Assembly (NCBI RefSeq): GCF_026210795.1
Contig: NC_089453.1
Location: forward strand, 1,862,501 to 1,926,500
Length of the DNA stretch: 64,000 bases
Direction: 5' to 3'
Origin: Rhizophagus irregularis
Lineage: Eukaryota > Glomeromycota > Glomeromycetes > Glomerales > Glomeraceae
In this document: piece after piece, positions 17,771 through 62,500 of the stretch
How positions within the stretch are numbered: the stretch's first letter is position 1
Layout of the letters: each line of letters opens with the position of its first letter
Program-made: the position numbers and the translations under genes
Notes under the pieces: generated by a model
The model's database searches: none
The model's input: only the letters and a program-made list of their open reading frames with translations
What the model was told of the DNA's origin: nothing

Positions 17771-19747
17771 TCAAAATGTTTTCACGCTAATAGTAAACTT
17801 GCTACAATAAGAAAGCAGTGAAATATATCCTTCACCCTGAGGTACGATCTGGATGAATCTGATCAATCCATTAGCTAGATAATCCCAGACTAAAAAATTC
17901 CCTTCTCCTTTAAATGCCTTCAAAAGCTGTTCCATTAATACTGAAGTGGTTCCTTTCTATAAAAAAATAAATAAATAAAGAGGTGTTAGTAACTTTTACT
18001 AAAATCCCTAATTAAAAAAAAAATCTGCCATCTTTATCTTTAAAATACCTTTCAAGGGAGGTTCTGACAGATAATCCAGTTAATCTTGATGATTTGGATC
18101 ACATCTTTATGATGACCCATTACAACATCCCAAGATCTCTAAATTCGTCATTGACAAATTTCAACTGAAATTCCACACTTTAGAACCATCTAAAAAAAAG
18201 AATGAATGAAACGTTAGTGAGAGTTTCATTAAAAAAAAGTCATTCAAAGAAAAGAAGTGCGGAGTCTACAAATAAAAAAAATACTTTAATATATTATTTT
18301 CTTTGAAGATGCTTTCAAAAGCTTCTCGAAAAACTTACCTAGGGTTCCGATGTGATACCATTCCTACAAATATAAAAAAAGTTAAAAAAATCATTTTTAA
18401 ATAGTCCAAAAAAGCGAAATGTAGTAATCATTTGTTCCTCTCACCAAATTTCCTGTGTGTCCAAGAGCCTGAAAAATTACCTAAAAAAGGAAAAAACTGT
18501 TAGTTAATAGTTCATAAATAAACAAGTTAAAGAAAAATACCACACACCATTACGCACGACTAAGAAATCTGCCTAAAAAAGGAAAAAAAAAGAAATCGTT
18601 AGTTAAAGTTTTGTTAAATTATAAAGAAAAAAGTACTGGAACTTACAGATTCTAAGAACAAGCTGTCTGAAACCTATAGAAAAGAAATAAATGAACAAAA
18701 TGAACATTAGTAAAAGAAAACGAAACAAAGAAAAAATAATGAAAAAATTTGGGCATTAACCTTTATTTCCAAAGAGAACCGTCAAGCCTAAAAAAGAAAA
18801 ATCGCTGGCACCTAAAAAAAGAAGAGCCAGCCAAAGAAAGAATAAATTAGTAAAGAAAATGACGGAAAAATAAAATTAAAGTAAAAGAATACCAATCTCT
18901 ATTCCGTAAAGAAAGCTGCAGAAACCTAAGAAAAAGTATTAGAACCTAAAAAAATGAAAAAGCAAGGTGAAAATTAGTAATGAAATGAAAAGAAAAAAAA
19001 ATAACCTGAAGAGAACAAGCAAACCTAGAGAAATCTGAAAAAAAGAAGCCGCCAAAATCTAAAAGAAAAAAAAGACAAAATCTACAAAAAAGAAAAATAA
19101 AAGTTAATAAAAAGGCAAAAGAAAACAAGACAGAAGAAAACAAAAAAGAAGGACACCACCTCTATTTTCAGAGAGAATTGGCAAAATCTAAAAGAAATGA
19201 AAAAATTGGAAAAAATGAACTGTTAGTAAAGTTCACTAAAATAAAATACAAAAAAAATAGAAATTAACCTTACTAGAATCCAATATCCAAAGAGAACTGC
19301 CTAGATAAAGGAAAGAACAAACTGTTAGAAATTGTTTGTTAAAATAAAAACAATTAAGAAAAAAATAAAAATAAAAAAAACTTACCAAAATTTTGCGTCT
19401 AAGGAAACTGGAAGAACCACCTAAAAAAATATACAATCGAAATGCTAGAAAACCCTCTTGTCTAACTAACCCAATATGGTGAGCACATCACCGTATAAAT
19501 AATACACTAGGAGCTCATAATTAATAGCTTTTGGAATTTCAATATTTTTAAATTTGCTAAACTTTTCTTGAACTGGTTCGGCAAACTCTGACGTGTAATT
19601 TATTAAAGAGATGCCAAATACAAGGTCTCCAAGTCTATTTCCTATAAAGAAAAAGAAATACTATTAATAAAAATACATTAATATTAAACCTTTCCCTAAA
19701 AACTTACTGAGGCATATATATAATATACACTTTTCAGGTTATCTGTT
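17771..19747 (-). CDS. Split gene made of many micro-exons (array 1)
   Basis: Not a known family to me. Best-supported exons, 5' to 3': 19747-19708 (reads TDNLKSVYYIYAS), 19641-19471 (171 nt, NRLGDLVFGISLINYTSEF... to YYLYGDVLTILG), 19420-19386 (GGSSSFLRRKIL), 19300-19269 (AVLFGYWILV), then several 20-55 nt exons (FCQFSLKIE, ILAASFFQISLGLLVLF, FLQLSLRNRD), and a last exon 17956-17771 encoding TTSVLMEQLLKAFKGEGNF... to SVKTF and a stop. The join 19641-19471 to 19420-19386 to 19300-19269 is phase-consistent, with a 50-nt first intron. Some later joins do not close in frame. Introns are short, with TTTACTAAC- or GTTACTAAC-like branch sites that often sit in a small hairpin, and T-rich 3' ends. 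Some exons are related (AVLFGYW, TVLFGNK), so units were probably duplicated. No ATG is identified. It could be a real gene with alternative splicing or a decaying one. Confidence 0.45.
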
Positions 19748-27656: not shown

Positions 27657-27678
27657 CTACGCTGCAACTTTATCATAA

Positions 27679-27710
<32 letters not shown>

Positions 27711-30593
27711 TTTATGTTGAACGGTAATTTTCCTAGACTTCCAGGGAGGCAATAAACCAGTTGTTACCAAACGATATAGATGATCTTTGCATCGACGCAA
27801 GCCTTCATTATATTTTGATGCCTTTTGTTCACGAAATGCAGTTAGAGTATGTCGATAGTGATCACGTTGAGTTTCTGCGTCCTCCTTATGTGTCCTTGAG
27901 GTCTTACACTTGTCCTGATATGTAATATGCAACGATTCTTCTAGTTCGTTCATCATTTTACATCGCGGTTTCCAAACATGTTTTCTAAAAGCTTCATGAA
28001 AGTATTTAATGATCTTTAAAGACAGGAGTGAAGCAATTCTTTTTGATGTGAGTTTTCTAAGCTTCTTTATGATTGTGTGTGAAATCAAACCACGTAGTAA
28101 TTCCTGTCTGTTTCTTTGTTTCAGTTCAGGGAAAGCAGGGTCTCTATATTCAAATATGCTGATGTAGAGTTCATTGATCGTGACAGATTTTTTGCATTTG
28201 AAACGTTTGAGATATTTCCGAATCTTATCTATCGTTTCTTTTTCAGCAGTGAGGAAAGCTTGTTCCAATCCAGTACATATTACTAAATGGTTCAAAGTCT
28301 CTTCATGGTCACGGCAAGCTGGACACGGTACATCATCATAAATGTCATTACGTTTTCTGAGATTGTCAACTGTAGGTAATAAGTTATTTGAAGACTTTAT
28401 GAAATTAATTAGAGTATTATTAGTATCAAAATTATCACAACGGCTCTTGTTAATGTTATTAAGATAGTGCCAGTGTGCGGTCCAATTCCATTCTGTTGAT
28501 ATATCGTGTGTTTGGTTATCGAAATAATCCTTCCAATTACTATTCAAAGACCACGTAACCTCTTCCAATGATTCCGAAACTATTCTACAAAATTGTCGAA
28601 CACGTCTATCTATCTCTATACTATGCCAAACTGGCAGAAATAATAAAGGAAAACTATAACTACATATAAATTGTAAGTCAACTAATCTATTAAAATTGAC
28701 AACCGCCGTTTCTCTACCTATTTTTGCTATCGCGTCAGCCTTATCGTTCCAATGGCAACCTGAATGACCTTTGACCTTATGTATTTCAATGTCCAATCTC
28801 TTAGACGTGATAATATCATAAATGGCAAAAAGAATGATATAATTATTAAGTTTAAGAAATTTGCGGCCATGTCTCGATACCATATTGTTAATTGTGTTTA
28901 TACCATCGATCGCTGCCTGACTATCCGTATGAATGTGTACCCATGATTCACTGGGGGCGACTAGTAAAGCTGTCAGTATGGCAAGCAATTCAGGTCTGGT
29001 TGATGAGGGGTGGAATCTTATTCCGCATGAGAAGCTAATATCTGTATTTTTTAAAATCCAGCCTGCTCCCATTACAACGACGTCTTCATTGTTTATACAA
29101 TTCAAATCCATTGAACCATCGGTAAAAAAGTGAAACTCTTGATTGTTAAATTGTTCGAGGCATCTGAGGATATCTGAGAGCTCCGTGATTAGTAATGTTG
29201 ATGAGATGGTTCTTTTAATAATGTCTAGGTCATAACTCGGGATATCAAGTGATACGAAAGGGGATTCATTCTCATACAACGAAGGTTTCGTAATTATTCT
29301 CGTCTTGATCAAATCAACAGGTGTCAAAATCTCAAAAGTGGAAGTGTTCTGGTAATTATTAGTTGGTCGTTTTACGTCAATAATTGTTGATTTGTGATAT
29401 TTTTCCTTCTTTATGCACACAGGATTATCCTCTATATGAGTCGAGTTGGTTGAGCATCCGGCGCATTGGGTAATTAAATTATTGTTATCTTGTCTGATCC
29501 AATGTTGATATGAGAACCGTGTGAGATTTTTCTTTAAAATTTTTCCGAATTGGTACTCATCTCCATCACGTGTAACAATCCATTCTTTACGCCTTCCGTC
29601 TCTTGAAGGAGGAGAAGGTGTAAGTGAAATAGTCTTATTAGTCGGGATAATCGTAGCTTGGTACCGTTCTATTAATGTACGTTGTCCGTTCGAATTCTGA
29701 TCGATAGCTATTTCTTCCAAGTATTTAAAAAAATTTGGGATTGGCCCTTTGGGATTTTTACCAAAAATCTTTTTGATCTGAGTCCAGAATAACATATCTA
29801 CACTATTGTTGTGTGTAATGTGATCTAGAAAGTTAATATCGAGTAATTCTGCAGGTCGTTTGATAAAAGATTCAATGGCCTTTATCCTTGATTGTTCTAG
29901 TTTCCTGAAATTCGTATGCCCCACATCAACAGATGTATGCAAGATTGAAATAATAGTGTGTTGATGTTGCGTGGTTAAATTCCATGTGGTAAGATCTGTT
30001 GGCCTGAAGCTAAACATTTGATCCTTAAATGATTTCAATAAATTAAAATTAAAGTTATTTTGTAAATTAATTTTTAGAATCAGCTCTGTGTGGTCAACCA
30101 ATATGCATCCTTGTAAACCTATGCGAAGCTGTGCATTTCTGAGCATGATTCTCGTACTTATTCCATCCCAGTCTCGTGAATTAATTCTAATAATAAATTC
30201 TGAATATTGTGCTGTACGTAAATGCTGAGATAATGGCACTAATCCAACCATATTTTGGTGCATGAAAATATTATTATTCGCGAACCTTATGATTCTCATT
30301 TTTGTCTTGAGTAGAGTAATCATACGATTATGAAGTGTTTGGCATTGATTTTCACTGACCAAAGTAGTTTTCAGTCTGTATTCGAGCCTTGCCATTAAAA
30401 CTACATTATTGACATATGCTATTTGGCTTGCTGTAACCTTCTTGTGTCTAAGTGCGTTAGTTATTGAAGTAATTTCTTGTTGCGCTCTTTTAATTACATG
30501 ACTCTGGCCTGCTCTACTTCTTATATAAATGCCCAGATATCTAGCGTCTTTTAAGGGAGGGTTGGCTTTTATCAATGTCAAGTCAGTTCCCAT
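27657..30593 (-). CDS. LINE pol, 3' part: RT thumb, RNase H, zinc knuckle (frameshifted from 5' part)
   Basis: The functional frame actually begins near 30790, where it reads [14 protein letters not shown], the YxDD catalytic box of reverse transcriptase. The first ATG-type start lies further in, so this is not a separate protein. RNase H follows: FTDGS (about residue 486 of this frame), RPELLAIL, IHTDSQAAI and GHSGCHWNDKADAIAK give the D-E-D-H/D set. Near residue 757, CPACRDHEETLNHLVIC forms a CCHC-like knuckle. A poly-Asn run from an ATT microsatellite (27681-27710) precedes the stop. It is separated from the 5' half by one -1-type frameshift between about 30775 and 30800. Confidence 0.88.
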
Positions 30594-30757
30594 ATTAATT
30601 TCATTTGTAGTGCCTTTGGGTGTGTTCCAAACCAGGAGTTCAGACTTTTCTCCGTTGATCGTAATATCATTAAGTTCGAAGAACGAGTTTGATATGCTGA
30701 TGATCTTCGTTATCTCATCTTTATTAGAAGCAATCCATGCAGTATCGTCTGTGTATG

Positions 30758-35004
<4,247 letters not shown>

Positions 35005-36540: not shown

Positions 36541-38761
36541 AGGTTGGTTTCTATAAAAAAATGGAGCATTAGTAATATTTACTACTGTTCCTAATTTTAA
36601 AAAAGACCCCGATCCTTTTTTAATTACCTTTCAAGGCATTTCATTGGTTCTGAAGCGTCTTGAAAATTCCTACAATAAGAAAAAATAAATGGAATATTAG
36701 TAATGTTTACTAATGTTCCTAATTTAAAAAAAGTAACTTTAAGTACCTTCCATCAGTTCCAAAGTGTCCGAAAGGTTTCTGCAATTTAAGAGAAGTTCCT
36801 GGCGGTTGAACCTTTCTTCAAAATTTAATTTTATACTAGCATCTTTTCAAAACTTTGTTATCAGAAAAAAAAAAAATTTTTTTTACATAAAATTACGTGA
36901 CTTCGATTAATCTTCATTCCTATCCCTATCTATCTCCTATTTTCTTCTTTTCTTCTTTTCTTCACCTTCACCTTCGCTTTCTCAGATTCACTTCTTGATG
37001 GTGACTCTACCAATACTTGTTTTTCTCCTACTTCTACTTTATCGGTCCTCCAATTTTCTTCTTTCAACCTTTTTTTGAAATCATCGTTAAGGGTAGTTAT
37101 ATTTCTGGAATATTTTATTTTGTTTCGCCATACTGATGACTTTTGGCTCAAAAAAAAGAAATTATTTTCTTTAAGCACCCAATCTTTTAAGGACCTGACT
37201 ATATCATACTCCGCTCATATTACACTCACCACTTCCATGTTAATTTTTTCCATTCCATCATGTTGGAGTTCTGATCAAAAATCCCTTTTATTTCTTCCAT
37301 TTAACCTTTATTTCCTTAACATTGGCAGGCGCATTTGTTGACGATGCTTGATATGAAATATACTTTATCTTTTCGTTTGTTTAATAATTTTTTATAATCT
37401 CAACAACTTTGTTCAGCGCTACATTATCTCATTTTAAAGGTTTGCTAGCTAACTCTTCCAAATTACCTATTCCTATATCATCATCATCGTCTCCATCACT
37501 GTCACTATCTACGTTCTCCTTTTCTTGTAATCACCTAGACCTTGATTCATTTCTGCAATAATCATTTCTGTGGGTAATAAATTTTGTTTATTCCTTGTCA
37601 CCATATTTGATAGTCCCATGTAAATCCTTTCTGGAGGCGTTTGTGGCATAAGAATATCATTTACCTTACTGTGCAAAGAGTTTGCAGCTCTCTTGTCCTC
37701 TATTCTCTTCTTATCCTTATTACGTTTTCCATCTCTATATACTGTCTTGAAATTCCTTACCATCCATACTTTCTCCAAATCATTTTTCTTCATGAAAGCC
37801 TACACCGTATTTTCCATTGTTTTTGAATCACTAAAGTATCCGATCACTTTTCAATTTTGCGTGATCCTGATGAATTTAATGAAAGCTGCAGTATATTCTG
37901 TCTGGGTTTTTTTCAAAAATTCATATTCACTTGTTCTCTTTAATTCCAAGAGATTCTGCTTCAACCCCTCCGGCCAAGGTAGAAGTACTGGAATTTCTTC
38001 TTAGAAAATGGATTATTTGGAAATTCTTTATTAAGGTCTTTACCTAAATACGTTATAAGCTAGAACAAGCAGAAGAACAACAAGGCCATACAGATAAAAT
38101 TAAACAAAGGGCCAAGGAATAATGATTAGAGAACAAACCCTTTATAGAAGACTCCAATACACTCCATCTTTTCGTTAGTTAGGTCCCTGACCAATTGCCA
38201 TTTATCTCATTCTTGTCATGCTTTCAATCCCGTTCTGGCATCAAACCATCTAATAAAATTTTTAAAAATTTTTGCTAAATACAAATTCCGAAGGTGCCAT
38301 TGCTTAGAAAGCGAGCCATTTTCTAAAAAAAATTTAAAGAAGAACGTTAGTCAACGTTCTTAACGAAATAAAACAACAAAATAAAACTAAAAAATATAAA
38401 GAATGTTAGTAAACATTTTTTAACAAAATAAATAATAAAAATTTTTTTCTGGCTTTACCTTACGTCCATTTTATCTTAAAAGATCCAAGGATCCATTTTC
38501 TAAAAAAATAAAAATGTAAAGAACGTAAATAAACATTTTTAATGAAATAAATAAAAAAATTTTTTTTCAGTTTTACCTTGCGTCCATTAGTTCTGAAAAG
38601 CCATTTTCTAAAAAATAAAATATAAAGAAAAGAACGTTAGTAAACGTTCTTAACAAAATAAATAAAAAAAAAAATATTTCTTTTCTAGCTTTACCTTGTA
38701 ATCCATTTCGCAAACAAACTTTTACAAATTTATTAGTGTTGAAGTTTTTAGTATATTTCAA
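36540..38761 (-). pseudogene. Decayed gene with micro-exon array 2
   Basis: At the 5' end the frame KYTKNFNTNKFVKVCLRNGLQ (38761 region; only a TTG, no ATG) meets a GTAAAG donor. Three successive acceptors are followed by related exon starts, all AAAATGG-: 31 nt (ENGFSELMDA), 41 nt, and a third that reads ENGSLSKQWHLRNLYLAKIF...FDARTGLKA if joined directly to the first exon. Introns carry the hairpin AAGAACGTT-TACT-AACGTTCTT, with TACTAAC at its loop. The long 3' part has many stops, at least two probably replacing Trp, and a readable piece at 37793-37509 (KTVYRDGKRNKDKKRIEDKR...). Two more structured introns follow at 36.55-36.75 kb, around EFSRRFRTNEMP-like sequence. The family is unknown to me and looks like a repetitive gene family relic. 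Confidence 0.5.
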
Positions 38762-48600: not shown

Positions 48601-50092
48601 TTTTCAGTAACATTCTTTCTCATTTGTCGTGTAAAATAAGATGGTATCATTTCATTTGCTAATGTTAACATTTTTGCTTCTTGACTTTTATCTTGTTCAG
48701 ATATTGAATCAGGAGTTTTCCATATAAAATTTAAAGTTCCTAAATAATTCCCATGATAATAACGATAAAGTGTAAATGTGCAATCCACGTTTAATTCATT
48801 TATGAAATTATATCAAGTTCTTTTTTCTTGAGGTAAATAATTATCTAATAAGTGTAGTTCATAAAAATTGGAATCTTTAAGAAAATCAGAAATATTTTTA
48901 AACTTTGGATTAAAATTTCTTTGTTTATTTCTAATTTCCAAGGTTATATTATCTAATAAATTTCGGGTTGGTTCATTTCTTGAATGATTTAAAATCATTT
49001 CATTGTTAACTGACTCCAAATAGGTTATATATTTTCGAATATTATGACATAGTTCAAATACATTAGAAATAAAAGGTTTCCAGTTCTCTTGACCCGCCCA
49101 AGGTTGAGTAATAAAATGTTCAATTGCTTTCAAATGATCTTTTAAATTTTCTCGCATAAGTTGCTCTTTCTTATGTTTCCCAGTATAATAAAAAAGATTA
49201 TATAATGATTTAATCTTGTATTGCGAAAGTGATAAGAAGATTTCTGGAATAATACAACTTCGCAAATTTAATTTTTCATGATGTGGATCAATGTACCATA
49301 GGAGATCAGTTAAAGCTTTAATAAATCCACTTCCAATACTTTCATAACTTCCCCCATACCACCCTAATAATTCATCTTTTAATAATTTAATCAGATCATT
49401 ATAAAGTAAATCATGACGTGTTACAAAATTTCTTTCTTTAGGAAGTTTAGGAATTCTGTTGGTTTCCATTATCTTACTTAACCCATTAATACCATTTTGT
49501 CTGTTTCTTTTCTCTAAACTTTCTTGCTCTTTCAATGTAAATTTGACTTGACATGGTTGAAACTTTTCACATAAATTCAAATTTGCGCTTAAACCATATT
49601 TAATATTGGTCCAATTTTTTGTTAATTCATTGTAAAATTGAATGACTATTGGTTGATCAAATATATCATAGCCTAAAACTTCAAATAACAAATCACTAAA
49701 AGTTTCTGTAGACTCCATTTCCACTGCATCTTCATTTAATAATTTCGTTTCTTTGTAAACAGCTACTATGAACCACATTTTAAAATAATAATTGAAAAAG
49801 GAATCAAAGATTTGAAAAAGAGATCGATAAAAAAATTATATTCTAATTTGGGAAACAATACAATTATTAGATCGGCAATATCTTAATTCGATAATTACCG
49901 TAAATACTATTAGTAATTAAATCACATGATATGTAAAATCGAAAAAAAACGCCGAAACTGATAGTTCCGGCGTGAATTACCAGGCCATGTATAATAAGAT
50001 CACGTGACATATATCCCGTTTGTTTATTTTTAAAAATTTTTCAAAAATGAGGGGGCGGGGGACGTTAAACAAACTATTAATTTGGAACAGCC
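45635..50092 (-). mobile_element. 4.46-kb DNA transposon with TTA target duplication, unassigned superfamily
   Basis: Ends GGCCGTTCCAAATTAAT and ATTAATTTGGAACAGCC form an inverted repeat of about 33 bp, followed inside by G-runs on both sides. TTA flanks both ends (45632-45634 and 50093-50095). The empty site can be read from neighbouring tandem units (CCATATTATTTAATGG), proving that one TTA is duplicated. A second, internally deleted copy at 62647-63340 has the same ends and the same TTA. It encodes one long multi-exon transposase (minus). Confidence 0.88.
45791..49778 (-). pseudogene. Large zinc-finger DDE transposase of the TTA element
   Basis: Exons 49778-48600, 48526-48296, 48199-47112, 46698-46574, 46500-46395 and 46308-45791, all GT-AG. 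Total about 1080 aa. The catalytic region reads SLICADDKHKVPIGE, then EILLIYTDGGPDHRNTFGSVQ, then RTAPYHSWMNPAER. The Asp of CADDK, the Asp of TDGG and the Glu of NPAE are the likely triad. The C terminus has several cysteine knuckles: CGKDNCKFC, CTICSKPRC and CFYCGEKDG...CQTC. I have seen this architecture in uncharacterised proteins of sponges and other invertebrates but know no family name. Two lesions: an in-frame TGA at 48813-48815 (KRT-stop-YNF) and a 1-nt loss after NPAER at about 47383, where the next frame continues MSILNLALQGVSL. The copy is therefore dead but nearly complete. Confidence 0.8.
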
Positions 50093-50095
50093 TTA

Positions 50096-50430
50096 TTTAA
50101 TGGAAAAATGCTGAAACGGCATTTTTTTCACTTCTTTTATGAAAACATCGCCAAAGCGGCATTTTTTCATTTATCTTATGGAAAAATGCCGTTTTGGCAT
50201 TTTTTTTCACTTCTTTTATGAAAAAAATTGCCAAAACGGCGGTTTTTCATATTATTTTATGTAAAAATGCCAAAACGGCATTTTTTTTCACTTCTTTTAT
50301 GAAAAAAATTGCCAAAGCGGCGTTTTTTCATATTATTTAATGGAAAAATGCTGAAACGGCATTTTTTTCCACTTCTTTTATGAAAAAAATTGCCAAAACG
50401 GCGTTTTTTCATATTATTTTATAGAAAAAT
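50096..50430. repeat. Tandem palindromic units, right half
   Basis: About four to five further units of the 45230-45631 repeat (GCCAAAACGGC, GCTGAAACGGC palindromes), interrupted by the TTA transposon. Confidence 0.8.
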
Positions 50431-50570
50431 GACCTGAATACTTTCAGGTCAGACAGGTCAGGTCGGGTCAGAGCAGGTTATCTGACCTGACCCGACCTGA
50501 TAAAAATTTTTCGGTTTGGGTCAGACAAATTACCCGACCTGACCCGACCGTGCGGAGCTCTATATATAAT

Positions 50571-51314
50571 AAAATACGTTACAAAATGCATTGTAAAATC
50601 ATTAAATAATTTTTAAATTGTAATATTTTTATAATTCATTTTAGATCATTATGAAATATATTACAAAATACATTGCAAATTCATTTTATCTTAATGGTTT
50701 TAAAATATTTTTCCTAATCCTTTATAATATAGATTACAAAATGATTAAAAATACTGATATTCATTACAAAATAATATTACAATTATATAAGTATTATAAA
50801 AATATTGAAAAATCATTACAATAGCATTTCAGAAAAATATTCATTTTTAGCTAAATCATTTCTTATCAAAAAAAAAATTTTAGAATCTTATTAACTTAAA
50901 AAAAATCAAAAATCTTATATTATAGTTTATATTTTTAATATTTTATATAAAAAAAAGTAGGGAACTGAAGTTAAAACAAATAAAAAATAATTTTTTCTTA
51001 TGAAAAATAATTTTTTTTTTACTTACTGTTTAAAATAACCACGTTATATATTTATTAATTTTTTTTAACAAAAAAGTGATTGAAAAGTGATTGGAAAAAG
51101 AATTGGTTATTATCTTTGTTTTTGAATATAATAAAAAGAATTTTTTTATTTTCTGATAAATTTGGATTATCTGAATATATAACACATATTTAATTTAGGT
51201 TTATAAAAGTTAAATAGATAAAATTTTATGAAAAATTTAAACTTTACTAACTGAAAGTTTCTTGAAGTTAAATCAGATGACCTTTGATTAAATATGTATT
51301 AAATTTTTTGTGAA
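50571..51314. other. Plavaka subterminal repeats, then AT-rich DNA
   Basis: Up to about 50850 short ATTACAAAAT/TTGTAATAT words repeat, as in CACTA subterminal zones. The remainder is AT-rich with no feature. Confidence 0.5.
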
Positions 51315-51842
51315 CATCAGCAAGTTTTAAACAGGCGTATAAAGTGTTGAAAAATGCCATGTGTTGCTCAACACCAAAAAACGTAGGGAAACGAACCCTT
51401 TGTCAATCAATGCCACTTAAAAATGTTGAAAAATGTGTAAATCAATACTCATTTAAGTGTAAAACTACACATAGTAAAATAACGATAGTTTAAAAACGTG
51501 TATACATTGTATAAAAACACGTATATCGATATTAAAAACGCGTATAGCAACATATAAATTTTATTAATCGTAAAATATTGTAAATTTATTTATATATATA
51601 GTAGTAATAGTACAATAAAAATACATTCATTATCTATCTAACTACACTACAAATTGATATTTCTCAGTAATGTAAATTGTCAAATGTTTAAAACTCTTGT
51701 TATAATTGGATTGCCACAGATTTTTAAGCGATCAATATACTAAATTTCTGTTGACATAGCACCCCTGGTGACACAACCATAACAAGGTGGGGTTTCGATT
51801 AAAAAAAAATACAATATTAAAAGTTTCGTTAACGAAACTTAC

Positions 51843-54658
51843 ACGATCTGATTCATATTTCAAAAAGCCTACAAAAAAGAAAAAAGGAATCATTAACAAA
51901 CATTTCCTAAAAAAGTTAACTATAAATTAAGTTTTGCAAAAATTGCGAAACTTACCATTTTGTCTACCAGAAAATCCGTAGACCTACAAAAATAAGAAAA
52001 GAAACATTAGTCAACGTTTCTTAAAAAAAAAATTATAAAATAAAGTTTCGCAACGTTTTGTTGCAAAATTTACCTATTACCATCCGCAATTCAAAATCTG
52101 AAGCCTAATAAAAAAAAGAAAATGGAAATGTCAGTAAACATTTCCTAATTAAAAAAATAAAAAAAATGGGTTTTGTAACGAAAAAATGTTACGAAACCTA
52201 CATTATCTGAATTTCCATATTTCCAGAAACTGAACCTATAAAAAAAGGAGAAATGTTCAGTTAGAACGTTTCTTACTAAAGAATAAAACAAAAAAAATGG
52301 AAGTTTCGTAACGAAATGTACGAAACTTACCATTTTCCAAAATTTCAAGTCCCAGAGGTTGGCCGAACCTACAAAAAATAAGAGAAACGTTCAGTTAGAA
52401 CGTATCTTAAAGAAAAAAACAAAAAAAAATGGAAGTTTCTTATGAAACTTACCGTTTAAAGACCCTTTTCTAACATTAAGTTTTTTGAAACCTAAAAAAA
52501 GAATAAAGGAAACATTAGTAAGAGTTTCCTAATAAAAAAAAATTAAGTTTCATAATAAAATATTACGAAACTTACCCAATCATTCTTCCGTTCTAAACTT
52601 GCTGATCCTACAAAAAGGATAAAGGAAACATTTAGTAAACGTTTCCTAATAAAAAATTAAAAAAATTAAAATTTCGAGGGAAACCCTTCGAAACTTACAA
52701 TATCCAAGATCCGAAGTTTGAATACGCTGAAGGTCCTACACAAAAAAAATATAGGAAACGTTAGAAACGTTCCTTATAAAAGAAATTAAAAAAAAAAATT
52801 TTTTTAAAAAGTTTTGAAGCAAAATGCTTCGAAACTTACCCTTTCCTCTGTTTTCCAAAAAAAATCCACAAAAAAAATAAAGGAAATGTTAGTATAAAAA
52901 ACTAAAAAAAAAATTTTTTTTTAAAAGTTTCAAAGCGTAAAATTACGCTTCAAAACTTACCCTTTTTCCTGCTTTTCAAAAAAAAGACCTACAAAAAGAA
53001 TTTAAAGAAACGTTAGTAAACATTTCTAAAAAAAAAATTAAAAAATAAATGAAGTTTCACAACATTTTATTGCGAAACATACCATAACATTAAAGTTCTT
53101 CAAAATCCCGTTTAGAAAAGAAATCCGCAGACCTAAAAAAGAAAGAAAAATGAAACGTTACTAGTCACATTTCATTAAAATAAATTAAAAAAAAAATAAT
53201 TTTACCTGTCCGTGAATCATCCAGGAAGCGGTCCTAAAAAAATAAAAAAACGAAACATTAGATACGTTTCGTTAAAAACAAAAAATTAAAAATTTTGAAG
53301 GTTTACCTTCAAAATTCCCGTCTGTGAGCCATCTGAAAGTTGCGGTCCTAAAAAAAACAAAAAATCAAAACGTTAGACACGTTTCGTTAAAGACAAACAA
53401 TTAAAAAAAATTTTGAAGGTTTACCTTCAAAATTCCCGTCCGTGAGCCATCCAGAAAGCCGCAGTCCTAAAAAAAATAAAAAATCGAAACGTTAGGTACG
53501 TTTCGTTAAAAAACAAAAAATTAAAAAAAAAATTTCAAAACGTTTTTTAACGTTTCGTTAAAAAATGAAAAAATTGGAACGTTAGCCAACGTTCTGATTA
53601 AAAAATTAACAAAAATTATTTTGAAACGTTAAAAAATATTTCGATTAAAAAATTAAAAAAAAATATTATGAAACGTTAAAAAATGTTTCGTTAAAAGAAG
53701 AAAAAATAAAAAAATCAAAACATTAGCTAACGTTCTGATTAAAAGAAATGAAAAAAAAAGTTATTAATGAAATGTTAAAAATGTTTCATCAAAACAAGAA
53801 AAAAAAAATGTAAATTGGAACGTTAGCTAACGTTCCAATTAAAAAATAAAAAAAAGTTATTAACGAAAGCGTTAAAAACATTTTGTTAAAAAAAGAATAA
53901 AAAATAAAAAATCAGAACGTTAGCTAACATTCCGATTAAAGAAAAAGAAAAAAAAAGTTATTTACGAAACATTTTTCAACGTTTCGTTAAAAAATGTAAT
54001 AAAAAAAATAATCAGAACGTTAGCTAACGTTCTGATTAAAGAAATTAAAAAAAAAGATTAAATGAAACGTTTTTCAACGTTTCGTTAAAAAAAGGAAATA
54101 AAAAAATAATCAGAACATTAGTCAACGTTCTGATTAAATAAAATGAAAAAAAAGTTATTTACGAAACATTTTTCAATGTTTCGTTAAAAAAATGTAATAA
54201 AAAAAATAATCAGAACGTTAGCCAACGTTCTGATTAAAGAATTAAAAAAAAATATTATTTTGGAACGTTTTTCAATGTTCCAAATAAAAAATGAAATAAA
54301 AAAATTAATCAGAATGTTAGCCAACGTTCCGATTAAAGAATTTAAAAAAAAATTATTTCAGAATGTTTTTCAACGTTTCGAATAAAAAATGAAAATAAAA
54401 AAATTAATTGGAACGTTAGCCAACATTCCGATTAAAGAAATTAAAAAAAATTAATAAATCAGAATGTTAGCCAACGTTCCGATTTAAAAAATTAATAAAA
54501 AATAATAAATCGGAACGTTAGCCAATGTTCTGATTAAAAAAAAAAAGAATAATATTTTCGAAACGTTAAAAAACATTTCGTTAAAGAATGAAAAAGTAGT
54601 TTCACAGTTTCGTTGCGAAACTTACCAAAAGTTCAACATTTTTCCATATAAGACTCAT
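51843..54658 (-). CDS. Micro-exon array 3: about 14 tiny exons with hairpin introns
   Basis: Unknown family. The first exon starts at ATG 54658 (MSLIWKNVELL, 33 nt, ends 54626). After a 1159-nt intron come exons 53466-53425 (42 nt, DCGFLDGSRTGILK), then 41, 28, 50, 28, 37, 32, 39, 38, 34, 31, 28 and 26 nt; the last are 52104-52074, 51983-51956 and 51868-51843. Introns are mostly about 85-110 nt (87, 90 and 97 nt for the last three). Almost every one begins GTAAGTTT-, forms a hairpin over or just after the donor (for example TTTTGAAGGT-AA-ACCTTCAAAA), then carries a second hairpin GGAAACGTTTACTAAATGTTTCC-like with the branch site in its loop, then a T-rich tract and AG. Exons are open in at least one frame and resemble one another, but lengths are not all multiples of three. 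Full-length chaining meets stops, so exon skipping, a non-coding RNA, or decay are all possible. Confidence 0.45.
53540..54600 (-). repeat. About 21 alternating hairpins inside the 1.16-kb intron
   Basis: Two hairpin types alternate every ~50 bp (period ~98 bp). Type A reads GGAACGTTGGCTAACGTTCC on the minus strand, with CTAAC at the loop. Type B reads CGAAACGTTGAAAAACGTTTCG. They are separated by A/T linkers. Type A equals the branch-site hairpin of the neighbouring short introns, so the intron looks like a tandem expansion of that module. Confidence 0.85.
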
Positions 54659-54699
54659 ATTTCAGGAATTAATGACCTTATATTACGGAGTTTACATAG

Positions 54700-54928
54700 T
54701 TTTTGGATAAAACTTTTTATAGGGATGAAGGGGAGAACGAAAGGGTTATGGGAAAATGAAAGGGAAGGGGAGAACGAAGGGGAGAACGAAAGTGTAATGG
54801 AAAGAAAGAAGGTTATGGAAAAACGAATGGAAAGGGGATAACGAAAGGGTAATGGAAAAATGAAAGAGAAGGGAGAACGAAGCAAAAAAAAATTAAGCTT
54901 TGCCAAAAAAAGCTTAATTTTTTTTTGC
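54700..54928. repeat. Purine-rich minisatellite and adjoining perfect palindrome
   Basis: GGGAGAACGAAAGGG / AATGGAAAAATGAAAGGG units repeat to 54880. Then 54882-54928 is an inverted repeat, GCAAAAAAAAATTAAGCTT and its complement around a short loop. The minus-strand frame 54906-54655 across this strand-biased DNA is not a credible protein. Confidence 0.7.
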
Positions 54929-55375
54929 TATATTGCAGCTACAGCGGTAATTATTACTCTAGTATCACGTGATAGATATAAAGTACATTACGCAATTGCC
55001 AAAATAATTTTTTTTTTAAATATTAAGTTTAATATATATAAATATATACTTGAATTAAATAGTGCAGTAGTTAAGATCGTCAGATAAATAATAGTGTAAG
55101 TTGAGGTGTTTGGTTCGGTTCCTAAGGTAAGTAAAAATAAATATAATTTTGATTTAATTTAAAATATATATAATATATATTAATATACGGCATTGAACAA
55201 CAATGCATAATGTGTTGAACTACACATTAGAGTTGAATGACGTGTATATTAACATTAAGCGTTGATATACTCCAGTATACGGGTGTTGATTAATATTGTA
55301 AAATGCATTAACAACTAGCTGGTGTTGATCAACGCGTATACTGGTGTGAATCAACACTTTTCAAACTTGCTGATG

Positions 55376-56207
55376 AAGTTTAAAAATTGATAAGTATTGA
55401 ATAAAAAGTAAAATAATTCTACAAAAAATAATATAGCATTGAACAATACAATGAGCAATTCTTGAGTGAATAATGTTCAGTAAATGTCAATAATCAGTAC
55501 ATAATATTATTTTGCGTATTGTTTAAAGCTTCCAGCCAAATGGTTCCAATTTTTATTTTTTTTGATAATGTGTCAAAATAACTCGCCATCTATTGATGCT
55601 AAAATGATGATTTTGGCATCATTTGAAAGCTCTCGATAAGAGGATTCTAATGAGCTCTTAATCGTCTTTCTACGATCACTGGATGGTGAGTTATTATGTG
55701 AAAATGATTCTGACCAATTAAAAAAGAATTGAAAATTGTAACTGTTCAGAGCTTTTTTATTATTCAATGTTTTGATCATTGAAATGATCAATGCACTAGT
55801 ATTATTGGTTTAATTTTTTAATATAAAAATTATATTGTAATGGATAAAATAATTAAAACAATATATTATTTTTATTTAATAAATTTTAGTAAAAACTTCA
55901 TTATTTAATTAAATATTAATTAAATTTAATTGTTTTTTCATTTCTTAATTTTTTTTAAATTTTTTTTTTATTTATCTCTTTGACGATGATTAAAGAAAAA
56001 AGATGATCAAACAAAATTTTTTTTTCACAAAAGTTTATTATTTGATAATTAAACTTAACAAGCAATAAGAGTATCACAGAAGTGCCCAATTTATGATTTT
56101 ATTCTAATGATGTCAAAAGAAGCAATATTTGTATATAGCAATATTTTTTGAAATATTAGCATTAAACAATGTATTACTATTGAAATTGTGAATATGCAAT
56201 ATGCATA
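55376..56207. other. AT-rich intergenic region
   Basis: One 72-aa minus-strand frame (55791-55573, with [33 protein letters not shown]) has a somewhat gene-like composition but no motif or splice partner. Otherwise featureless. Confidence 0.4.
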
Positions 56208-56556: not shown

Positions 56557-59500
56557 TTACCCAAAATAAATATGACTTTGAAGACTTTGTAGATTAAAGT
56601 ATTTCTTATTTTTCAATTTACGCGTTTTGTCAATAAACTGCTCTTTACCAAAATATTGTTTTTTAACATTTTTATCAATTCCCAAACCTCTATCAATTTT
56701 ATTAAGTTTATTACACCTCACTTTCCAAAAAATCATAGATTTATCCAAAATTTCATTCCTAAAATTATATGACAAAATTTCAACTTTTGATTTCGTAGAT
56801 AATAATTGTTTAAAAAAATTAATTAACGAACAAGGAAAGAAACTTTTAATTAAATCTATGAAAGTTATGTGATCCTCTGATACTTCAAGTTTCCAAATAT
56901 CATTGAGATTTTTAATATGTTCAAGAGTAATATGATTAATAGGATCTAAAATTTTATTAATTTCTAAAAGAAGCCAATTTTGTACTCCTGAAATTAAATC
57001 ATCCATATTCTCTCGTCTTTCTTCACAAAACCAGATATGATTGAAATCTTCTTCATCCTCTTCACACATAGGACAAAACCTTTCTTTATATAATGAAAAT
57101 AAAGTTCTTTTAATTTGTTCAATGCAAGGAAGTTCTTCAATCATCAACTGAATTTTGTGTCTTCTAATTTTTGATTCTTTGAAATCAGTGTATAATTTTT
57201 GTTTTTCTCCCAAAAAATTATTAAAAAAAATTGACCAATCTATTTCACATTTTCTATACTTATCATTTCTATTTAAATTTAAAAACCTTTCCAAATTTTT
57301 CGTATTGGTTGTTAATGTAATTAACTTTCTTAAAGATTTTTCTATAACTATGCCATTCCATTTGGGAATCTAAGGAAGATCATAAAAATTATTATAATTT
57401 AAATTAATTCCTAAATTTTGATCATTATGTGCCAAAGAAACAATATTGTTGACATAATTATTTAAAGAATCATCTGTATGAGCATTAACTTTAAATATAT
57501 GAACAGATAAATTATTTTCTTTAATAATATTCATAATTATTTTCCAAAGAATGTTGTTATTACTAATTTTAAAAATTTGTCTAGTAATTAAAGTAAAATT
57601 ATAAAATTTAAATTTTTCAAAATTACTAATAACGCTAGCACTATCTGTATAAACTGTTAAATTACTATTAGAAGGTGCTATTAGCAAAGTAATTAATAAA
57701 GCAAAAATTTCTGCACGTGTTGATGAAATCCAATTATTATAAGATGATATTAATTCCAAAATTTTTTGCAAGGACAAATTATAAAAAGTTGTTCCAAAAG
57801 TAGCTGATACATATTCTTTGGTAATATCTTTAATTGAACCATTTGTATAGCAAACAAAATCTTTAACATTTGAATCATATAAAATTTTTCTTGAATCAAA
57901 TAATTTCTGTTTATCTAATGATAAATCTATATATTTTTCAATAATATCTAAACTATTTTCATCAAAACATAATTGATAATTATCATATGAAGAGTAATAT
58001 AAAGAGTTTCATTTAAAAAATTGCTTGATCATATCTTATAATATTTTCCATATAATTATGTTGTGCTTCCTTTAGAAGATATGCCTTATATCCCTTCCAT
58101 TTAATAAGTCTTTTATATCTCACTTCATATATTTTAGTTTTCATTGATTCTATTATACATTTACCCTCTATTTGACCAATATTATATTCACAACCATTAC
58201 ATACTTTAATAAACAAATTAATTTCACTTGTGTCTGATATTCTTTTAAAATGTTTAAAAATATATGTAAAGGGCTTTTCTTCAATTATTTTTCCATAAAT
58301 ATTTTCAAAATGAAACATATTAAAAGATGTTATAATATTATTAATATGAATATTAATTGGTAAAAATTCATAACCACCCAAATTTGTGACTACATTATTA
58401 TCTATATATTCCTCTTTAACATGATAATTTTTTCCATTAGTTGTAACTAAAGACTGAATTTTTTTATATATATTTGGCGTATTAACTACATTACTATTTC
58501 TATTATTACTAAGAGCAAATATCTTATTTTTTATATTCCACCATGTCAGAAGAGTTTTGTTATCAGGAAATAAAAATTGGTCCAAAAATATAAATTATTC
58601 ATATGTAAAATTTTTATATTTTTCAAAAAACTTTCAGTTCCAACAATTTCCATAATATGACGACCCCTTCCTAATACAGTACTATTTTTCCCAATATTGT
58701 GTTTATTAAATTCTATACTAAAATTATAACTTTTCATTAATAATAAATTATTAATAATAAAATTATTTTGCAAATGTTGACCCATAAAGATTAAATCTTT
58801 ATTAGAAAAAGGAAAATTAATTAAAGGATTGAAAGGTAAAAGTAGTTTATTTTGAATATCTACTAAACGAATCTCCATTATTTTTCCTAGAATTCCTTGA
58901 TCATTAATTTGAATTATAAAATTATTAACCTTAGCTTGCAATTGATTATCAAAAATTGAATGAATATTATATAATAAATTCAATTCCATAATTATATTTG
59001 GTGCAGTTGAAGCTAACTTTAATTTATTTTTAAATTTTTTTCTATAAGGAACCATGATTTTTTCACAATCTTTTTCTGATAGTATTATCATTTGTGTCCT
59101 ATATTCGATACATGGTAATATTACAGCATTAAAAATATAGGAACTAATTTTGTCTGTTATGCATTTGTTCTTCAGCAGGTTATTACTTAAATTTTTGACT
59201 TCATCAAAGGCTTGTTGTTTAATAAAATTGTTATCATTATATATATTGAACCAAACACCCAAGATTCTAAGACTTTCTGTTTTTCCTTTAGGTTTGATTT
59301 TGATTTTCTGATTGCCAAATTCTAACTCTATTTTTTCATTAAAATTAAAATTCTTTTTCTTAAGTAACAATTCAGATTTTTCTTTATTTATTTAAATATC
59401 ATTAAGAGTATAGAAGTCATCAGCTGTTTTTAATATTTTTTCTAATTCTTCTTTATTGCCAGCTAACATATTAGTATCATCCATATATGCCATGCTGGTA

Positions 59501-62500
59501 ATGTTTTGTTTTACTTCTACCTCTATATTTTCATATAAATTGATTTTCTTTTTTGCCTTTACACGATATCCAAAGTGTTCTTGCTGTATGGCAGTAAGAA
59601 GTGGATTATAATATATATACCACAAAAGTGGTGAGATTATTTCCCCTTGATCGATTCCAACCATTACATCATATGGATTACTTAATCCTCCTGCTGTAAA
59701 TACACTATTTTTCCGTCCCAAAAATAACTCTTTTGTTAAATTAATAAAAGAACTTGGTATTTTAAAATGTTGCATAGCTTTTTCTAACATAAAAATATTA
59801 ACACGATCATACGCTTTTGACATGTCTAATGATAAAATCCACAGTTCCTTATTATTCTCATTAGCATCTTGAATTATTTCATTAATAATCCTTAATGGTT
59901 CAAAAGTTGAACTGAAAGGCAATCCAGCAAATTGTAAACCTTTAAGAATTTTGTTTTTCTGAAGAATTGTTGATAATCTTGCATTCATTATTAATACCAT
60001 TAATTTCCTAGCCGTTTCCAACAAAGTTATTGGGTGTTGTAACCAAAGATATGGAATAGATTACACAGAAATTAATGTCAGATAGTGATAATTAGTTAAC
60101 TGAAAATATAATATGGATAAATAATTAGCCGATGGGTAAATAATTAACTGATAAATAATATTTATAGTTTAATTTAGTCACGAGAAAGTCATATGATAAT
60201 ACATCTTTTATTTCTTATTATTTTCTTAAAAATTTTTAGTAGAAAAAGAATAGTAGATAGTAGAAATAATTTTCTTAACATGTATAAATACAAGTGGGAT
60301 TCATTAGGAATTCTGCAGTCAATTTTTGGCTCAATAAAATAATATTAAAATATTAATTATTGAAAGTTATTCAAATATGAATATGCTCATTGTACGCTTG
60401 AGAATTAATTAATATTATATTATAAGTTCAGAGAAGTAAAGTAAGGGAAATTATCCCAGTTTAATTATTATATAAATTGAAATAAGAAGTTAAGAGAACT
60501 CTTGCAGTTTATAAGAGAAATTATGAGAATGTAAGAGATATAAATGAAAGAGAGCGAGAAGTTAAGAGATTATAAAATCTAAACCAAGCATAATATTGAA
60601 TTGAGATTGAGTTTAGTCTACTGATATGTGGCAGGTATCGGTGACAACGTGTATTAACTAGTTGACAACCCCATGGCTTTGGTTTCGGTATAGGATAAAC
60701 ATTAGCATATTTCCATTCTAATGGTATCTCTTGATTATTAAAAATTAAAATAATTAATTTTCTAATAATTTCTTTAAATTCTGGAGATGTGTGTTTCAAC
60801 ATTTCATTACTAATACCGTAGGTCCAGAAGCTTTATTATTTGATAATTTATTTAAAGCTTCACTCAATTCATCATTTGTAGGCTCTACCATCAAATCTTT
60901 ATAAATTTTATCATTAATTTCATCTTGCGAAAAATAAAATTTTGCCATTATTCTGATAAAATCTTAGGTTGGTTTGTTGATTCTGCAATATTTTGAAAAT
61001 GATCATTTACAATATCTTTTATTTTTTCTTCATCAGTGATTAATTTATCTTCATTATTTTCTTTAATTAGAACTCTGTCTAATACAATGGATTTAATTTC
61101 ACATTCCATTACACTATTAATCATACGTTTTTGATTTTCTAATAAATCTTCATAGCGTTGGTCAATTGCCAGTTTAATTTTTTCTTCTTTGAATTGTAAA
61201 AGATTGTAATTATATAGGATTAAATAAATTTGATATAAATTTTTTATTTCTTCAAAAATTTCCTTGACACTTTTGTCATCCTTAGGAATTTTATTCCAAC
61301 AATAATCACTTTTTTCTCTTCCAATTTCCAATAATTTTTTTCTATATGTAATCTAATTTCTGATCACATGATTTCTTTTTCTTGAATCTTTAATTGAACG
61401 TCTGAAATTTATTAAAAATTTCATTACTTTATATGCATTAGATATTTTCATTGGGTTGACTCAACTTTTAGTTAATTTGATTTTTTCTATTGGAATACAA
61501 TTTTTACTAGCTTGAACAAGACCTTTTTTGATCTTATCCCATATATGATTAATATTATTTTTATCGTTAAAATTAAATTTTAAAATTTCTGAATTTGAAA
61601 TGTATTTATTAAGATCATTCTGAAATAATTCCCACTGCTCTCCATCCATTTTATCATACTTATAAACTTCTTTACCAATCAAATCTTCTGACCATATTGA
61701 ATACACTAACATTCTATGATCAGTATTAATTGTTGTTGTATTAACAATTTTGCATTCTTGTGTTTCTGAAAATAAATTTTCTGTTACCCAAATGTAATCT
61801 ATTCTAGAAGGATTTTGATTTGTATTAAAAGAATAGAAAGTATTTAAGGAATGTTGTGATAAATTATCAAACATGATATAGAAAGGATCATAAAAATTTT
61901 GTTCATCTTCAATCATTCAAAAAGTTTATGTTCTTTTTTTATTTTACGATTATTATTTTTATCATCCAGATATTTTTCATAATGAAGATTAAAATCACCA
62001 AGAAGAATAATTTCTGCATTTTGTGCTTTACTTTCTCTAACCAATTCTTTGATTTTATCAAAATAAATTTTAACTTCTTGATTAAAATTGTCTAAAGTAA
62101 CTCGTCCAGATTTTCCATAATAATTAATAATTAATGATTCTCATTTTTTTATTTCCACTAAAAATAAAATCAACATATATAATTCTTCCTTTGAAGCTAT
62201 TATAATTGACTATATGCCGTGCATAATTTTTCTTAATAATAAGACCTATGCCATTTCCCCTATAATTAATTTCCTCATTTGCAAAATAAGTAACATAATT
62301 ATTTCTATAAAAATTAAAAGAATGTTTTGCCATTTTGTTCAATATATTAGTTTCTGATAGACCCAAAATAGTTATATTATATTCACCTAATATATCAATT
62401 AAGAATTGTTTTTTAACATCAGTTATACCTTTAATATTCAATGAAGCTATTTTAATTATATCTGATAAATTGAGTCGTTGACGTGTTTTCAGACGATAAA

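Follow-up and report, generated by a model that had tools for sequence, protein, structure and literature searches.

The stretch of DNA considered here (the window) comprises 64,000 nucleotides of the Rhizophagus irregularis genome (contig NC_089453.1, positions 1,862,501 to 1,926,500, forward strand). Between 53466 and 51843 its minus strand shows 13 introns of 73-104 nt that separate 14 exon-like blocks, each 26-50 nt long. GT stands at the start of all 13 introns and AG at the end of 12, and this array of micro-exons is enclosed in a transposon with terminal inverted repeats (TIRs). The features of the element, in window coordinates, are as follows.

51315..55375, minus: complete non-autonomous PlavakaB-type TIR transposon, 4061 bp, delimited by the ends of homology and the termini
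55376..55377, unstranded: 2-bp target site duplication, left copy (TT on the minus strand)
55363..55375, minus: left terminal inverted repeat CATCAGCAAGTTT, 13 bp, read in aligned copies
55000..55375, minus: left end common with L024, L025, L026 and L030 (86-88% identity)
54713..55051, minus: pyrimidine-rich repeats ending in TATAAAAAG (54721-54713), a putative promoter from reading of the sequence
54626..54658, minus: putative first exon, its 3' end at a hairpin donor (alignment of donor and flanks)
53467..54625, minus: putative first intron, 1.16 kb, tandem near-perfect palindromes with a 99/198-bp period (sequence repeats)
53425..53466, minus: micro-exon 1, 42 nt
53307..53347, minus: micro-exon 2, 41 nt
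53206..53233, minus: micro-exon 3, 28 nt
53083..53132, minus: micro-exon 4, 50 nt
52961..52988, minus: micro-exon 5, 28 nt
52840..52866, minus: micro-exon 6, 27 nt, preceded by TG rather than AG in the window copy
52699..52735, minus: micro-exon 7, 37 nt
52576..52607, minus: micro-exon 8, 32 nt
52453..52491, minus: micro-exon 9, 39 nt
52331..52368, minus: micro-exon 10, 38 nt
52202..52235, minus: micro-exon 11, 34 nt
52074..52104, minus: micro-exon 12, 31 nt
51956..51983, minus: micro-exon 13, 28 nt
51843..51868, minus: micro-exon 14, 26 nt, followed by a further hairpin donor
51869..53424, minus: whole span of the 13 homologous introns between micro-exons (folding and intron model R1)
51315..51791, minus: right end common with L024, L025, L026 and L030 (75-90% identity; two pieces for L026)
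51315..51327, minus: right terminal inverted repeat AAACTTGCTGATG, 13 bp, read in aligned copies
51313..51314, unstranded: 2-bp target site duplication, right copy (TT on the minus strand)

A preliminary description of this DNA had placed about 14 exons of 26-50 nt on the minus strand, and that is what was measured; its introns of mostly about 85-110 nt turn out somewhat shorter, and its AG ends hold with the exception of the acceptor before micro-exon 6 (52867). At that position AG is found in 6 of 7 other aligned copies, the stretch being deleted in the seventh (L017). The array had also been taken to extend to 54658. The interval 51843-53466 stands, but 53467-54625 is 1.16 kb of palindromes without micro-exons. 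The exons had been said to resemble each other, which is true of some of them, mainly exons 1-4, but not generally: 5 of 91 exon pairs are alike at p<0.01, and 4 of these lie within exons 1-4. Arrays elsewhere in the genome show the same signs of a repeating unit, with near-identical 38-nt exons in L052 and similar 31-nt exons in L056. The proposal that an exon-intron unit was multiplied in tandem is thus supported, for exons 1-4 of the window and for the L052 and L056 exons, by the likeness of the units.

Upstream of the array, the hairpin donor at the end of the putative first exon aligns, together with its flanks, in 11 copies of the element, which were chosen for having that donor. Because this donor lies just upstream of them (54625), the palindromes at 53467-54625 are probably a first intron; the intron model discussed below scores 44.4 bits at 54542-54625, just after the putative first exon. 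The palindromes themselves (53470-54600) are 28-30 bp long, with 83-97% complementarity between copies. The pyrimidine-rich region further upstream is 69.7% identical over 346 bp to the equivalent place in a second family of elements (L022), a figure to be read in the light of its low complexity, and the TATA stretch stands at the matching position in 7 of 11 aligned copies and is displaced in L012-L014.

What the preliminary description overlooked, while it recognized the array, its tandem growth and the option that it is non-coding, is that the array is the cargo of a TIR transposon. Among dispersed copies, homology breaks off repeatedly at or within a few bases of 55375 and 51315, and 2-bp flanking duplications of varying sequence are present in 10 of the 11 copies that show both ends (L010 differs; L011 and L016 show one end each and are not counted), as well as in all 7 further elements read. 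In the 146.7-Mb assembly (32 contigs), the exact left-end pattern occurs at 54 places and a right-end 21-mer at 48, with none for the reversed-pattern control of either; pairing of left and right ends by eye yields array elements of ~3.5-5 kb and a class of ~8 kb. Four members of the latter (L024, L025, L026 and L030; 7.8-8.1 kb) share with the window element no more than the first ~380 and the last ~480 of its bases; on the opposite strand they bear transposase frames that read as near-identical. A 300-residue piece from L030 scores 101.6 bits (E 6.5e-29; cut-off 26.3) with PF18759, the Plavaka transposase. The window element, which resembles the transposase-bearing elements at its two ends only, has no transposase of its own. 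PlavakaB elements are defined, in the part of the source available, by CATCA..TGATG termini and 2 or 3-bp target duplications (PMC12730594). Since its ends match those of elements with a Plavaka transposase, and its CATCA..TGATG termini and 2-bp duplication fit the published definition, the window element is, as judged from its ends and relatives, a non-autonomous transposon of PlavakaB type, with the array in the transposase's place. It shares termini, duplication length and longer PF18759-bearing sisters with PlavakaB; it differs in carrying a micro-exon array instead of a transposase. Some PlavakaB families are described in the same source as carrying a TET/JBP dioxygenase gene as cargo.

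Two side observations concern this family. L014 consists of one family element nested within another, each with its own 2-bp duplication. The Plavaka elements that bear a transposase also have small additional open frames on the strand opposite to it, such as those at positions 5425-6980 of L024, one of which has KAASGG repeats.

According to the accessible part of PMC11075540, R. irregularis genomes are about half repeats, with two-thirds of transposable elements unclassified; Plavaka is prevalent in the strains, and in colonised tissue Plavaka and CMC-EnSpm are among the superfamilies of which more families are expressed. The word "intron" is absent from its main text, and, as we read its methods in the portion available, TIR elements that lack a transposase and exceed 1 kb would be retained neither among class II elements nor among miniature inverted-repeat elements (MITEs).

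The same kind of array is carried by a second family with different ends. Elements L052, L053 and L054 (which contain L022, L023 and L020, respectively) hold arrays that are homologous to that of the window (64-70% identical in stretches as long as 1.3 kb) and lie between termini CACAGGTCGAA ... TTCGACCTGTG (CACAG..CTGTG). The left ends of this family occur at 43 places in the genome and the right ends at 65 (controls, 0). CAC..GTG termini with a 3-bp duplication define EnSpm/CACTA elements in the part of PMC12730594 available, and they are found together in 4 of 5 second-family elements (L052, L053, L054 and L056; L055 differs). L055, ~8 kb and devoid of array donors, encodes a protein with weak EnSpm-type matches (PF02992, E 1.7e-4, and DUF4218, E 2.7e-3, both below curated cut-offs). 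The array-bearing members depart from EnSpm/CACTA in that no EnSpm transposase was found among the frames looked at; one of them, L056, also has hAT-type transposase domains, perhaps a nested insertion. A third family was sought from L021, but this DNA search mostly picked up a different abundant repeat, with matches that begin at query position 561 or beyond.

The introns themselves are characterized by two hairpins, one at the 5' splice site and one holding the branch site, just as the preliminary description had it: folding predicts the donor hairpin in 12 of 13 window introns (that of introns 1 and 2 extending over the end of the exon and GTAA) and the branch-site hairpin likewise in 12 of 13, and the folding z-score is -2.5 or lower in 11. 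The fairer test of the donor hairpin uses GT[AG][AG]GTTT sites collected from 15 related loci regardless of pairing, because the intron alignment to be described next was chosen for stems. Of the sites on the sense strand, 117 of 184 have a stem score of at least 8, compared with 7.7% after shuffling; the antisense strand has only 4 such sites. For the window element alone the corresponding figures are 5 of 10 and 9.0%, and in the remainder of the window 1 of 9 donor-like sites reaches this score. The second hairpin was evaluated in 55 introns, whose selection rested on a donor stem and a branch motif and took no account of the second stem: in 39 of them the highest-scoring stem of the 3' half reaches at least 9 (shuffles, 21%), and in 45 it surrounds a branch-like motif.

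A strict intron finder retrieved 113 introns and is selective, since it recovered just 2 of the window's 13. Removal of redundancy and a length filter reduced these to 51 (L036 being held out), and two more (L020:1414-1499, which had a wrong acceptor, and L029:890-985) were dropped by hand, leaving 49 for alignment and for a covariance model, R1. In this set, 97.3% of donor-stem cells are paired, compared with 89.1% after shuffling, and sliding of the partner strand lowers pairing to 27-55%; cells altered on both sides number 57 against 23.5. Two of the five measures do not beat shuffles. Model R1 matches 12 of 13 window introns with 43.7-73.5 bits (2 of the 13 sat in its training set), the third intron (53133-53220) scoring just 20.5 bits (E 0.62). 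Pairing of the donor hairpin begins at intron position +3. A separate idea, that exon tails pair with the donor and so act as a toggle, was tried and dropped: stems of at least 5 are found in 29 of 63 contexts against 24% after shuffling, but swapped introns already give 44%, and there is thus no sign of co-variation between exons and their own introns.

A rival reading is that the palindromes do their work as DNA, by binding a transposase or host factor, or stay perfect through template switching, the splice signals being incidental. CMC-type transposons do have repeated subterminal binding motifs, which speaks for such a role, as do the length and complementarity of the palindromes. The hairpins of the array, however, keep a fixed register with donor and branch site on one strand, and the array-free, transposase-bearing elements manage without palindromes; we regard a function at the level of DNA as unlikely. 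Alternatively, spliced introns or palindromes might be cut into small RNAs in the manner of mirtrons. Each intron does fold, and the best Rfam matches are weak miRNA models; all 7 matches, however, fall far below gathering scores (the best is 28.6 against 80), and the stems, at roughly 8-16 bp, are on the short side for dicing. To a small-RNA source we accord very little probability.

How widely the units have spread is indicated by searches of the whole assembly. The window element has at least 111 DNA matches, many of them spanning just part of the array (40 of 596 candidates were scored). A strict donor-hairpin pattern occurs at 688 places (control, 0) and a relaxed one at 1,844 (control, 9), counts in which self-complementary hairpins score on both strands and some matches may not be donors. 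In an introner-like origin, a single double-hairpin intron would have been mobile and inserted again and again, into one transcribed sequence as well as into host genes. The introns do resemble each other more than the exons do, and one intron of 51.3 bits adjoins a mitochondrial-carrier exon (PF00153, E 3e-12). Yet the exon units are duplicated too, the carrier locus holds an upstream array, and of 20 regions around isolated-looking donors (contigs C1-C3, among the matches listed) most proved by eye to lie within further arrays; these regions do not demonstrate an introner-like expansion, one of the preliminary description's options, in its usual sense of lone introns inserted into unrelated genes. 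We think this origin quite unlikely. Introners resemble the arrays in supplying many related introns per genome, and have been linked to non-autonomous DNA transposons (PMC9860276 and PMC4457414, in the parts available; "rhizophagus" does not occur in the main text of either, as far as accessible); they differ in that the introns of the arrays are in tandem inside larger elements.

Donors in L035, L036 and L049 stand beside frames that look protein-coding. L035 and L049 were discarded as lone host-gene introns, as they have no branch hairpin and their donors may be due to chance; a clean reading frame across the junction in L036/L051 was sought by reading and not obtained. In L051 (1600-3475, plus strand), an array lies immediately upstream of the PF00153 exon, and its last array-type intron ends at that exon. 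The frame beside a donor-hairpin match in L046 is one that we take to be Argonaute-like.

Is the array coding? The preliminary description had offered a micro-exon gene making variable peptides by exon skipping. The longest stop-free frame through the window exons is 92 codons against 49 after shuffling (p 0.01), and for the window and seven copies together the longest frames run from 58 to 92 codons against ~50 (p 0.01 to 0.26), in differing frames; L012 (89 codons, p 0.01), L014 (81, p 0.02) and L013 (73, p 0.05) are likewise high, with the reservation that exons of the seven copies were cut at the window's boundaries, which misfit L011-L014 at the array edges. In five further arrays (2 of 53 model hits skipped for want of a nearby GT or AG, and one 107-nt block left out), L028 (74 codons against 43, p 0.03) and L054 (79 against 56, p 0.09) exceed shuffled length, and L052, L053 and L056 equal it. 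Against coding stand exon lengths that are mostly indivisible by three and vary from copy to copy, the repeated 38-nt exons of L052 and 31-nt exons of L056, which shift the frame with each copy (the former hitting stops in one frame), and exons that change faster than introns. The peptide gene is therefore unsupported, and we give it only a very slight chance; as far as sequence can tell, the array appears mostly non-coding, with a remnant of doubt. Flatworm micro-exon genes are like the arrays in their long series of tiny exons, but those exons come in multiples of three and their products are secreted; the exon lengths of the arrays do not fit, and a kept frame was not found.

The rates of change behind this statement come from comparison with nine diverged arrays, in which substitutions affect 4.3% of GT, 8.5% of AG, 13.4% of branch-site, 16.2% of other intron and 26.6% of exon positions (the exon figure may be inflated, because non-corresponding units of a tandem array may have been aligned with each other). 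GT and AG together are substituted at 25 of 374 positions, compared with 1173 of 7243 for the rest of the introns (p=8e-8). Conservation of the splice sites, which the preliminary description had made a test of its proposal, is thus seen across diverged arrays; it is not seen among eight recent copies.

We consider it moderately probable that the array is a spliced, essentially non-coding RNA unit that is carried as transposon cargo, grew by tandem duplication and spread by transposition; of the options in the preliminary description, a structured non-coding RNA locus fits best. That the arrays are transcribed and spliced we infer from their anatomy and from conservation between arrays. The unit would be transcribed from its own upstream promoter and its short introns taken out by the spliceosome. 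With donor and branch site enclosed in hairpin stems, folding would gate the speed and order of intron removal: U1 reads the donor site, part of which a hairpin starting at +3 would cover, and the branch motif lies inside the second hairpin. Introns with their splice signals would be what is kept and exons short spacers; snoRNA host genes are comparable, in that introns are kept and exons are free to change. (Rfam finds no family at gathering score in 51000-55700, and no known snoRNA in the introns.) Units would grow by tandem duplication, and whole elements would spread by means of a transposase supplied in trans. What the element might gain is the most speculative part: its RNA may resemble processed host mRNA, and thereby escape silencing and be tolerated inside genes, or spliced leaders may be provided to neighbouring genes.

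Several observations weigh against the spliced-RNA explanation. Among the eight recent copies the splice dinucleotides are no better kept than other sites (changes at 11 of 164 AG, 3 of 162 GT, 162 of 2934 exon and 248 of 6034 other intron positions; 81 of the 162 exon changes lie in CpG-like contexts). The value of p=8e-8 overstates the case because the nine arrays are related to one another, and the class of other intron positions includes T tracts, which align trivially. The appearance of selection could arise from homogenisation among the tandem units or from mutational repair of the palindromes. The two donor-stem measures that fail are base pairs with two-sided changes (6 against 5.2, reached by 142 of 500 shuffles) and further pair types (17 against 16.1, reached by 139 of 500); no covariation was seen between exon tails and their own introns. 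The window copy has its one broken acceptor, the putative first donor is absent from 5 of 16 first-family elements (L010, L011, L014b, L028 and L029), and there are the long open frames of the window, L012, L013, L014 and L028. We read the contrast between recent and diverged arrays as that of a transposon family with an active lineage under constraint and individual copies that drift.

The same contrast bears on a neutral origin, in which the elements captured an intron-rich fragment and a palindromic unit expanded in the manner of a minisatellite, signals and hairpins being inherited and unused. The decay of recent copies without sparing of splice sites favours it, as do the exon-free palindromes, which show that palindromes expand by themselves, and the many matches that cover the array only in part. 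It has to contend with the better preservation of GT and AG in diverged arrays, with donors confined almost to one strand (184 against 4) and stems that survive two-sided changes, and with the carriage of the unit by two element families with different ends; we find it possible, and doubt it.

A bolder form of the spliced-RNA explanation we advance only tentatively: that such arrays represent transposon cargo of a new kind, namely a gene for a spliced RNA with the spliceosomal introns as the selected product, present in at least two DNA-transposon families and at ~1,800 hairpin-donor places, and serving as a splicing-dependent shield, signal or leader. The container is a known type of transposon, and a micro-exon array as its cargo appears to be undescribed: the literature searched, of which subscription papers were thinly covered and sources available in part, contains no description of such arrays. 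SP7 effector genes were considered and set aside, as the accessible part of the published account gives one conserved intron before the repeats, and no arrays. If spliced, the arrays would be a natural system for control of splicing by structure at donor and branch site, would link DNA transposons to the multiplication of introns, and would lead to false gene models in this genome.

The window has other features of related or separate kinds. A second, smaller micro-exon array of similar style, with branch-site hairpins, lies at 18160-19480 (minus), just downstream of an exon that potentially encodes GNRLGDLVFGISLINYTSEFAEPVQ...; it has four genome copies including the window's, with 86-100% identity, and 49 weaker matches that are candidate arrays only. 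A short third array at 38270-38700 (minus) has exon-like blocks starting with AAAATGG, and its introns have branch hairpins with ACTAACGTTCT. Pieces of non-LTR (long terminal repeat) retrotransposons are present at 27657-33235 (minus; RNase H, endonuclease and reverse transcriptase domains) and at 59392-60024 (minus; reverse transcriptase domain). Near the element, at 50092-50431, are tandem units of 81/40 bp with short inverted repeats (AATGCCGAAACGGCATT).

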